A DNA stretch of 51,687 bases from Bacillota bacterium (GTDB lineage: Bacteria > Bacillota > Sulfobacillia > JAJZYS01 > JAJYTV01), in the NCBI GenBank assembly GCA_021847575.1, contig JAJZQO010000012.1, positions 1 to 51,687 on the forward strand, in the 5' to 3' direction. Position 1 is the stretch's first letter; each line of letters begins with the position of its first letter. The position numbers were made by a program, and so were the translations under genes. Shown in pieces: positions 34,573 through 43,759 of the stretch. Below the pieces are notes generated by a model. That model ran no database searches and was not told the origin of the DNA. It saw nothing but the letters and a program-made list of their open reading frames with translations.

Positions 34573-35060
34573 GCTTTTTAAGCGAACCCTGACCGAAACC
34601 GGAAAACCTGAGTGGGGAGCGAGGAATATTCGCCGGGCTGGCAGAAACCAGTGTTGGTGTCCTTAGAGCCTGTGGACCACAGGCTTTGCCGAAGCGTGCG
34701 GTGGTGCGAGCTCAGACTTTTCGGCACGGGGGCCGAGATACACATGGAACAAGTCCTCCCCATCGGCGCTCGCGTCAGGGCTTCTGAGCCCCACGATGTC
34801 GTCCTCCCAGCTGTGAGAAGTCCACGAGGCACGGGGGCGTTAGCGTGGCTCGGCCCAAGCGGTACCGCAGCGGAGGGGGGCACGCAGGCCCGGAGCAGAT
34901 AGATGCGTACCTCCGGGCCGGAGTGCCACAGAGTTCGCGATGATGGCCGCAAAACAGGATCAGCTGCTTCGGTGCGCCATTGCCGACGCCGCCGACGGCG
35001 CTCGCCGCAAGACCGCTCCTTGCGAGGGCCTGTTGGCGGCGAGAAGGGTGGGATCGTCGC
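34573..35060. other. gene-free stretch with a two-step hairpin at 34879-34927
   Basis: About 490 bases without a supported gene between the IS607 remnant and the carbonic anhydrase. At 34879-34927 a strong hairpin forms: outer GGCAC/GTGCC, a symmetric three-base internal loop, inner GGCCCGGAG/CTCCGGGCC, and a 15-base loop. It lies about 130 bases upstream of the carbonic anhydrase start and could be a structured 5' leader or a small RNA. No known riboswitch consensus is recognised. Confidence 0.5.
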
Positions 35061-35570
35061 ATGCGGGGTTCCTCGGCGACCATGTTTCTCGACCGACTTC
35101 TGGCGGCCAACGAGCGTTATGCGGCCGGACACCCCCTGGCCAACCTCGACGCGCCGCCGAGCGAGCGCCTTGCCATTGTCACATGCATGGACGCGCGCAT
35201 CGATCCGCTGCCACTGCTGGGTCTCCGCCCCGGACAGGCGCACGTCCTGCGCAATGCGGGGGCGCGCGTGACAGACGACGTGCTGCGTTCCCTCGTGATT
35301 TCCCAACAGGCTCTCGGCACCGATGTGGTCATCGTGATGCCGCACACCAGTTGCGGCCTCCTCGGGCTTGATCCGGCGACGCTTCACCCGCGCAGGGCTG
35401 CGGGGCGCCCGGCGACTCGTCTGGACTTCCACCCTATGTCGGACCTTGAAGCCGCCCTGCGGCAAGACATCCAGAGTCTGCGGGAGAGCCCTTGGATCGG
35501 GGAGAATGCTGAGATCCATGGTCTTATCCTGGACACTGCAACGGGATACATTGTCAGGCCCGATCTCTGA
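35061..35570 (+). CDS. beta-class carbonic anhydrase
   Basis: Interconverts CO2 and bicarbonate with a zinc ion. The zinc ligands are visible: Cys in VTCMDARID, and His and Cys in MPHTSCGLL. The Asp-Arg dyad (CxDxR) and RNAGARVTDDVLRSLVIS block are typical of the short beta-carbonic anhydrases of Gram-positive bacteria (about 160-190 residues). With ATG 35061 the protein has 169 residues, preceded by AAGGGTGGGA; ATG 35082 (162 residues) is the alternative and starts at the conserved FLDRLLAAN helix. It stands alone. Confidence 0.9.
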   Translation: MRGSSATMFLDRLLAANERYAAGHPLANLDAPPSERLAIVTCMDARIDPLPLLGLRPGQAHVLRNAGARVTDDVLRSLVISQQALGTDVVIVMPHTSCGLLGLDPATLHPRRAAGRPATRLDFHPMSDLEAALRQDIQSLRESPWIGENAEIHGLILDTATGYIVRPDL

Positions 35571-35776: not shown

Positions 35777-36364
35777 TTGAATGGCTGGGCGGTGCTCGCC
35801 ATTGTCCCCGCGTTCGGCATAGATACGTTTGCGGTGGCTACTGGGCTGGGCGCCGCGGGCATAGCCGATCGGCGCCGTCTGGCGCTGGTCGTCGCCCTCT
35901 TCGAAGGAGGCATGCCGATCGTCGGCGCGCTGATCGGCACTTGGCTCGGCGGGCTCGTGTCGGGCTACGCGGTCTGGATTGCCGCACTGATCCTGGCGGC
36001 GGTCGGCGTTTATGAACTGCTCGAGGGTGTCAAGGAGCTGCGCGAGGAGAAGGAGGTGGGCGCCGAAGAGGCGCATCGAAGCGGCGCCGCGGCGGTTGAG
36101 AAAAAGTTTGTGGGCGTTGGTCTCATCGCCGCTGGACTGAGCGTGAGCATGGACGAGCTTGCGGCCGGACTGGCGTCGGGGGCGGCACATATGCCCCTCG
36201 TCGTACTCGCGCCGGTCCTTGCTCTGCAGGCGGCTGTGTTCACCTACCTGGGGCTACACGCCGGCAACCGGCTGAGGAGTTGGGCTGGCCGATACGGTGA
36301 GCTTGTGGCTGGTGCAGCGCTGCTCCTTGCCAGCGTCGTCATAGTGCTGATCGGCTCCCGCTAG
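35777..36364 (+). CDS. MntP/YtaF-family manganese efflux-like membrane protein
   Basis: A 195-residue protein with six predicted membrane helices in two related halves, each starting with an acidic FxxDxFAVA-type motif: IDTFAVATGLG in helix 1 and VSMDELAAGLASG in helix 4. This duplicated pattern is that of MntP manganese exporters and the sporulation-linked YtaF group. The middle loop is charged (EEKEVGAEEAHR). TTG at 35777 has GGAGGA nine bases upstream. No yybP-ykoY manganese riboswitch is recognised in the 206-base leader. Confidence 0.75.
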   Translation: MNGWAVLAIVPAFGIDTFAVATGLGAAGIADRRRLALVVALFEGGMPIVGALIGTWLGGLVSGYAVWIAALILAAVGVYELLEGVKELREEKEVGAEEAHRSGAAAVEKKFVGVGLIAAGLSVSMDELAAGLASGAAHMPLVVLAPVLALQAAVFTYLGLHAGNRLRSWAGRYGELVAGAALLLASVVIVLIGSR

Positions 36365-42159: not shown

Positions 42160-42672
42160 ATGGAAAAGGACGAAGCGTCGGTTCGCGATCGGATTCTCGC
42201 CGCCGCTGAAGCCGCCTTCGCAGCCCATGGCTACGGATCGGTGGGCGTTTATGCCATCTCAAGCGCGGCCGGCGTAACCACGGGGGCGCTCTACCACCAC
42301 TTTGGCGGCAAGCTAGAACTTTACCGAGCGGCGCGCGAGGCGTACGAGGGCAGATTGCTTGCGGCCATGCGCGAGGCCACGTCGGACGTGGCGCCTGGTG
42401 TGCGGGCGGTGCGTGTAGCACTCCTCGTCGCATGGGACATGGCGTCGAGGGACGGCATGGCGAGACTGTTCACGGAGCCTGGGCCAGGTGTGGGGCCCGA
42501 TGCGCTCGGCCGGTTCGTGCACGGTCTCTGGCCATGGGGACCCGGCGCGGTCGGACACGTGCTGGTGTTCGCGTGGCTTGGGGCGTTGGAGGTGTCGCTG
42601 CGCGGCTCGGACAGCGATGCGAGGCTCGTTCTGGACGGCATACTGCGCGGTATCGCCGGGGATCTCGGGTAG
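42160..42672 (+). CDS. TetR-family transcriptional regulator
   Basis: A 170-residue repressor. Residues 1-55 form the TetR helix-turn-helix (RDRILAAAEAAFAAHGYGSVGVYAISSAAGVTTGALYHHFGGKLELY). The C-terminal ligand domain is short and not assignable to a subfamily. No ribosome binding site is evident before ATG 42160, consistent with a nearly leaderless transcript. It is divergent from the GNAT gene across a long gap and convergent with the His/Cys-rich small gene. Target and ligand unknown. Confidence 0.9.
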   Translation: MEKDEASVRDRILAAAEAAFAAHGYGSVGVYAISSAAGVTTGALYHHFGGKLELYRAAREAYEGRLLAAMREATSDVAPGVRAVRVALLVAWDMASRDGMARLFTEPGPGVGPDALGRFVHGLWPWGPGAVGHVLVFAWLGALEVSLRGSDSDARLVLDGILRGIAGDLG

Positions 42673-42708: not shown

Positions 42709-42732
42709 GCGGGCATCGCTAGCGATGCCCGC
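42709..42732 (-). terminator. perfect 24-base palindrome, terminator of the His/Cys-rich gene
   Basis: Positions 42709-42720 and 42721-42732 are exactly complementary (GCGGGCATCGCT and its reverse complement). On the minus strand TTTGCCTT follows, 14 bases after the stop codon of the small gene, giving a good intrinsic terminator. It may also stop the convergent tetR transcript, though no T tract lies on that side. Confidence 0.75.
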
Positions 42733-42745
42733 CGGGGAAGCTATA

Positions 42746-42910
42746 TCAGTGCGTGTGGCCGCAACCGCATCCGTCGCCGTGCTCGTGCCCACCGCAGCCG
42801 CACGAATGGCCCTCGCCGTGCTGGTGGTCGTCTTCGTGGTCGTGGCAGCCGCACACGTGGTCCGACTCCGCCTGACCTTGACCGGCCGGCACGAGGCGAA
42901 TGAGCTTCAA
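42746..42910 (-). CDS. 54-residue His/Cys-rich small protein, candidate metal-binding
   Basis: TTG at 42910 has GGAGGGG (42916-42922) five bases upstream; the frame ends with TGA at 42746-42748. The product has 10 His and 6 Cys in its last 37 residues, arranged as three Cys-Gly-Cys units, each followed by a His/Asp/Gly-rich tail (HDHEDDHQHGEG, GGHEHGDG, GHTH). The first 15 residues (KLIRLVPAG) are ordinary and might form a strand or short anchor. Such composition indicates Ni, Zn, Cu or Co binding, as in His-rich metallochaperone tails. A promoter-like sequence and a terminator flank it exactly. No homologue is recalled; function is inferred from composition. Confidence 0.75.
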   Translation of the reverse strand: MKLIRLVPAGQGQAESDHVCGCHDHEDDHQHGEGHSCGCGGHEHGDGCGCGHTH

Positions 42911-42939
42911 GGGATCCCCTCCAGTCTTGTCCTGGTATC

Positions 42940-42969
42940 AGCCTAGACTGAAGGGCATACCTGCGTCAA
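42940..42969 (-). promoter_or_regulatory. candidate SigA promoter of the His/Cys-rich gene
   Basis: On the minus strand TTGACG (42964-42969) and TAGGCT (42940-42945) are 18 bases apart, placing the transcript start about 23 bases before the TTG codon and just ahead of its ribosome binding site. The -35 is strong, the -10 weak. Confidence 0.5.
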
Positions 42970-43063
42970 CGCGTCTCGTGGCGACCGAGGCAGGTATTGC
43001 CTGTGGCCGAGCGAAGCCGTCAGTCTGGGGGATCAGGTCTCTTCTCGCATGGGAGGGAATCAT

Positions 43064-43759
43064 ATGAGGATCGCCGCGCTGTACGACATCCATGGCAACC
43101 TGCCCGCGCTCGAAGCCGCGCTGCATGCCGCCAGAAAGGCGGGCGTCGAGAAGGTGATCCTTGGCGGCGACATCGCGGCAGGGCCGCTACCGGCGGAGAC
43201 GATGGAGATCCTGATGGCGCTCGGTGACTGGGCATCCGTCTTGCAAGGCTCTTCGGACCGTGCCGTGGTCACCTGCTACGACCTGCTTATGGCGAAACAC
43301 AGGATCGAGCTGCAGACCTGCGACCCGCTCGTCCGCTGGGCGGCGGAGCACATCACAGGCCACCAGCGTGATTTTCTCGAGGCGCTGCCCCGCGATCTCA
43401 GCTTCCACTCGCAGGACCTGGGGGAGATCCGCTTCTACCATGCCGCGCCGCAGGACGGAGAGAGTCCGAGTTTATCCGAGCCGCACGGCGGCGTTGTCGT
43501 CGCTGGCCTCGACCATCGTCAGGGTACCGAGCGCAGGGGTGGCGTGCTTCAGGTGCATCCGGGCAGCGTGGGCATGCCGCAGGGCGGCGGGACCGGTGCC
43601 TACTGGGCCCTGCTTGGCGAAGAGGTCGAGTTGAAGCGGACGGAATACGACACTACGCAAGCCGCTAGGCGCATCATGCGCTGCGGCATGCCGGACGCCA
43701 AGGCCTGGGCACAGCGCTACGTGCTGATGGAGGGGGTAGATACGGTAGGAACCACGTGA
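43064..43759 (+). CDS. metallophosphoesterase-like protein with altered metal-site motifs
   Basis: A 231-residue calcineurin-like fold. The first motif is intact (ALYDIHGNLPALEAAL) and the second is present (ILGGDIAAGP), but the usual GN(H/C)D reads QGSSDRAV and the final GHTH reads AGLDHRQ, followed by the well-kept LQVHPGSVGMPQGG. So two metal ligands (the bridging Asn and one His) appear replaced. Related YfcE/DR1281-type proteins hydrolyse phosphodiesters. ATG at 43064 has GGGAGG seven bases upstream. Either activity is altered or lost, or the protein is a regulator. It stands alone next to the small metal-binding gene. Confidence 0.75.
   Translation: MRIAALYDIHGNLPALEAALHAARKAGVEKVILGGDIAAGPLPAETMEILMALGDWASVLQGSSDRAVVTCYDLLMAKHRIELQTCDPLVRWAAEHITGHQRDFLEALPRDLSFHSQDLGEIRFYHAAPQDGESPSLSEPHGGVVVAGLDHRQGTERRGGVLQVHPGSVGMPQGGGTGAYWALLGEEVELKRTEYDTTQAARRIMRCGMPDAKAWAQRYVLMEGVDTVGTT

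Follow-up and report, generated by a model that had tools for sequence, protein, structure and literature searches.

Organization of the microgene locus

The window analysed here, a stretch of 51,687 nucleotides from a Bacillota genome, carries a short minus-strand gene (the microgene) between the genes for a TetR-family regulator and a YfcE-like metallophosphoesterase. The features of the locus, in window coordinates, are as follows:

42160 to 42672, plus strand: gene for a TetR-family regulator, convergent neighbour of the microgene in all six genomes of the genus
42709 to 42732, no strand assigned: 24-nt perfect palindrome, probably a two-way terminator stem, with a stem predicted in five distinct homologous sequences
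42746 to 42910, minus strand: microprotein gene of 54 codons with a TTG start, homologues in six of six genus genomes, dN/dS of 0.28-0.39 versus other lineages
42918 to 42922, minus strand: Shine-Dalgarno sequence GGAGG, located 7 nt before the TTG and found in all seven copies at nearly equal spacing
42940 to 42969, minus strand: promoter TTGACG-N18-TAGGCT, with TTGACG, a spacer of exactly 18 nt and TA(C/G)GCT in seven of seven copies
42989 to 43001, no strand assigned (read on the minus strand): conserved GGCAATACCTGCC block, 19 nt upstream of the -35 element
43064 to 43759, plus strand: gene for a YfcE-like metallophosphoesterase, divergent neighbour of the microgene in all six genus genomes

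The frame translates into a product of 54 residues, MKLIRLVPAGQGQAESDHVCGCHDHEDDHQHGEGHSCGCGGHEHGDGCGCGHTH, in which the six cysteines form three CGC units and a His-rich tail comes after each unit; the last 37 residues hold 10 His and all 6 Cys. The initial annotation had described this TTG-started minus-strand frame with its three CGC units and had given the same residue counts, and in both respects it was accurate. When the single sequence was submitted to AlphaFold, the microprotein was predicted to be unfolded (mean pLDDT 50.6).

The expression signals proposed for the gene in that annotation, namely a strong ribosome binding site, a promoter-like TTGACG-N18-TAGGCT and a 24-base perfect palindrome followed by TTTGCC, are likewise all present, and they are retained in the homologues. 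The palindrome, GCGGGCATCGCTAGCGATGCCCGC, starts 13 nt past the microgene stop and is followed by TTTGCC with no T-run. Three base pairs of this 3' stem are changed on both sides among the five distinct homologous sequences, and the stem probably acts as a terminator in both directions, serving the convergent microgene and TetR gene. Generic scans for sigma-70 promoters and terminators reported nothing at the microgene, where the -10 element is poor and the T-run absent. Because these scans were silent and the palindrome lacks a T-run, the signals are weak on their own; however, their conservation in every homologue is the stronger evidence.

Two further conserved stretches were noted in the alignment. 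Upstream of the microgene promoter, GGYRATMCCTGCC occurs in all seven copies (minus-strand reading, 42989-43001), and this block could serve as an operator or belong to the divergent promoter. From codon 4 onward, ATTCGCCTCGTGCC (42888-42901, minus strand) shows no nucleotide difference among the seven copies while many other synonymous sites vary, and such identity near the start may reflect a constraint at the RNA level.

Conservation and coding status within the genus

A search of 60 related genomes recovered homologues of 59-61 residues, in the same gene order, from all five other genomes of the genus, and no convincing homologue outside it. The homologues align over their full length: the M-LIRLVP residues of the conserved N-terminus, M(K/N)LIRLVP, the six cysteines and the CGC pattern are invariant, the His tails differ in length, and every copy of the gene begins with TTG. 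The stop-to-stop distance between the microgene and the TetR gene is 57-73 nt across the six genomes.

Altogether, the six genomes yield seven copies, two of them in G004. One of these is the copy of G003 and the other is that of G005 bar a single residue, and the neighbouring genes match in the same way. We therefore rejected an interpretation of the two copies as paralogues and read them as the product of a mixed assembly. With G003 and the first G004 copy identical, and G002, G005 and the second G004 copy close to one another, the family represents about four independent lineages.

Purifying selection on the microgene is visible. Between the window and the other lineages, dS was 0.68-1.05 and dN 0.27-0.29, giving a ratio of 0.28-0.39; among the other distinct lineages the ratio ranged, over few sites, from 0.14 to 0.69, and that of the adjacent phosphoesterase gene was 0.10-0.26. 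The initial annotation had judged a real gene likely from the agreement of its signals and had named loss of the frame in close relatives, or stops and frameshifts in homologous loci, as findings that would speak against it. The frame is kept in all five other genus genomes, and neither stops nor frameshifts occur. As the frame, the start, the ribosome binding site, the promoter, the CGC units, the terminator stem and the gene order are kept in all six genomes, the microgene is almost certainly, on this comparative evidence, a real protein-coding gene.

Distribution of the family and its likeness to known metal-binding proteins

Beyond the genus, the family profile found nothing in the sister genus or in other families of the order, and nothing at E 1e-4 in a phylum sample of 398 genomes; a class-wide search (154 genomes) gave four matches outside the genus, with E values of 4e-4 to 0.007. 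In our judgement, neither the sister genus nor the remainder of the class nor the phylum sample contains a convincing homologue. In the sister genus, the phosphoesterase is found in three of four genomes (51-55% identity), and in two of these, as judged by eye, its neighbour encodes a pentapeptide-repeat-type protein, with no such microgene seen to adjoin. Sequence searches of Pfam, NCBIfam and the PDB returned no match to the microprotein, and for no member was a Pfam family, the metallothionein family Metallothio_Pro included, found at E <= 1. With no convincing match outside it, this one uncultured genus seems either to be where the family originated or to be the only one that has retained it.

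The plasmids and phages searched held no homologue. Ten viral contigs encode proteins of about 420 residues with a short internal HDCGCGGHEDSCGC stretch, and this similarity was judged to be convergent. In three of them (L074, L080 and L083; related contigs L075-L082) the HDCGCGGHEDSCGC-type stretch follows CKECTIETKC, and a metal site is likely there.

A His- and Cys-rich layout of this kind is known from the tails of SlyD, UreE, HypB and HspA, and the free-standing Hpn shows another form of it. The initial annotation saw no described family with this layout, which holds for the family models of Pfam and NCBIfam but not for the layout itself, well known as it is from chaperone tails. We surveyed Cys/His density in the loci collected for analysis, which gave 4394 open stretches with 40 codons or more; this set is not random because SlyD and the UreE-like locus were chosen for their resemblance. 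The density of the microprotein family is more than chance, and outside the family it was equalled only by E. coli SlyD, by a UreE-like protein and by a single irregular stretch, which seems to be read in the wrong frame; an ordered density was confined, among these loci, to the microprotein family and the SlyD and UreE-like tails.

The UreE-like protein (L032, 5500-6276) comes from an uncultured Duodenibacillus, and its body matches the NCBIfam UreE models at E 1e-9. Its tail, like the microprotein, contains CGCGGHHH and CGCGHDH units, and the alignment between the two beat 498-500 of 500 composition-preserving shuffles (0-2 of 500 did as well), a likeness beyond composition. This tail is fused to a UreE body, whereas the microprotein is free-standing and lacks such a body by Pfam and NCBIfam models. 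The Duodenibacillus tail is unusually long, with repeated CGCGGHHHH / CCCGHDHDHEH units. Among the ORFs listed for its 12-kb stretch, of which the UreE-like ORF itself was scanned against families, none was recognised as a urease gene. The tail of E. coli SlyD aligned locally with microprotein members at scores of 90-122. The likeness was clear beyond composition for one of three members, the scores of the other two being reached by 21 and 115 of 500 shuffles, and the SlyD match is mostly one of composition. Such likeness to nickel-chaperone tails could be the result of convergence.

The SlyD tail is unstructured, and SlyD binds up to 7 Ni (PMC7055735). Both this tail and the microprotein are rich in His, Cys, Gly and Asp, but the tail belongs to an FKBP enzyme, whereas the microprotein, with 54-61 residues, carries neither an FKBP prolyl-isomerase domain nor any other Pfam domain. 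His-rich regions of HypB have been proposed as nickel stores, and the N-terminal CXXCGC / His region of HypB provides CGC and His as nickel ligands (PMC7055735). The combination of CGC and His is shared with the microprotein, which is too short for the GTPase that contains the HypB region and matches no model of its domain. Hpn is a lineage-restricted protein that sequesters and stores nickel (PMC4671568). Like Hpn and Hpn-2 of Helicobacter, the microprotein is small, free-standing and His-rich, has Cys pairs and is found in a single lineage; in contrast, as judged from models and motifs, Hpn carries CC motifs and is richer in His, the microprotein has CGC and matches no Pfam or NCBIfam model, and the lineage of Hpn has urease while the genus of the microprotein has none. 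Bacterial metallothioneins of the SmtA and MymT types have about 55 residues and Cys pairs. The microprotein is similar in both respects, but it has far more His and no Pfam match.

A probable metal store and the alternatives

Taken together, these comparisons are best explained if the microprotein corresponds to the His/Cys tail of a nickel chaperone in the form of a separate protein. We infer metal binding, a storage role and a cytoplasmic site, and the likeness to SlyD and UreE tails, the parallel with Hpn and the absence of a predicted fold make a flexible, unstructured store or buffer of metal in the cytoplasm the likeliest role, and a probable one. The modular metal store suggested in the initial annotation thus seems a sound idea, given the composition and the match to nickel-chaperone tails. 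That same tail likeness makes nickel our first guess; it would be the likeliest metal, although this choice is tentative, and zinc, copper and cobalt are possible next candidates. The microgene would be expressed from its own promoter, with a probable terminator, as a small unfolded cytoplasmic protein whose CGC pairs and His tails may bind several metal ions. The metal would be soaked up and released, as Hpn does with nickel in Helicobacter and the SlyD tail in E. coli. It is conceivable, if rather doubtful, that this family was born in the genus as a modular store made solely of CGC-His units, independent of nickel enzymes and with its capacity tuned by the length of the His spacers.

No metal-transport gene adjoins the microgene, its neighbours being the TetR regulator and the phosphoesterase. 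About 6-7 kb away, the window contains a putative manganese efflux pump (Mntp, 35777-36364) and a partial carbonic anhydrase match (34980-35570).

Nickel enzymes in the genus bear on a more specific role, in which the microprotein would serve specifically to deliver nickel during the maturation of [NiFe]-hydrogenase, replacing a metal-rich region that is short in the HypB of this genus. Five of the six genus genomes encode both HypA and HypB, with a hydrogenase large-subunit match outside profile positions 1-67 beside them in four (G001-G004), and HypB, as read in one genome, has merely a short MCETKGEGHHHQH start; the sister genus lacks HypA and HypB in every genome and also lacks the microgene. 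However, the microgene lies outside the hyp operon, and in the window genome (99.4% complete), where it is still under purifying selection, we found neither HypA nor a HypB match above cut-off, and likewise no clear NiFe hydrogenase or urease, the last being absent from all six genomes of the genus. The hydrogenase-model matches of the window genome fall only within profile positions 1-67, and we read such matches as complex-I-like. Because this genome keeps a constrained microgene without these nickel proteins, the microprotein is not purely a nickel store for hydrogenase; a role limited to hydrogenase nickel is unlikely in the window organism, and a dedicated donor is improbable in general.

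That retention without nickel enzymes would suit a metallothionein-like protein that detoxifies copper or zinc and is not a nickel protein. CxC units are typical metallothionein ligands and are present in the microprotein, but the Pfam metallothionein models are unmatched, and with at least 10 His beside six Cys the microprotein resembles nickel-chaperone tails more than it does metallothioneins that use Cys alone. This explanation is somewhat unlikely, although ahead of a dedicated donor. The microprotein, whose conserved N-terminus precedes a repetitive region of Cys, Gly and His, also resembles the precursor of a modified peptide, with a leader and a Cys/Gly/Ser core; however, no modifying enzyme was recognised adjoining the microgene, and the one family of such enzymes looked for across the genomes, MNIO/DUF692 (PF05114), which modifies copper-binding peptides such as bufferin and methanobactin, has no member in any of the six. 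Such a precursor is very improbable. Least credible are the readings as an ORF open by chance or as a regulatory leader peptide, in favour of which the TTG start, the stem without a T-run and the silent generic scanners might be adduced: the frame, start and signals are kept in six genomes, dN/dS against the window is below 0.4, and the downstream gene is convergent, leaving a leader nothing to regulate.

Among these readings, a metal store or buffer places the microprotein in a type of protein that is already known, while the family itself is missing from the protein-family libraries searched. Small metal-binding proteins are easily overlooked by gene callers and family libraries, and the comparative support for this microgene is unusually complete given its size. 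As the module of a chaperone tail in the form of a free gene, the microprotein would add, alongside Hpn, a second example confined to one lineage, and the window species, which has the microgene without nickel-enzyme maturation, allows one to ask whether such proteins serve nickel supply or general metal buffering.
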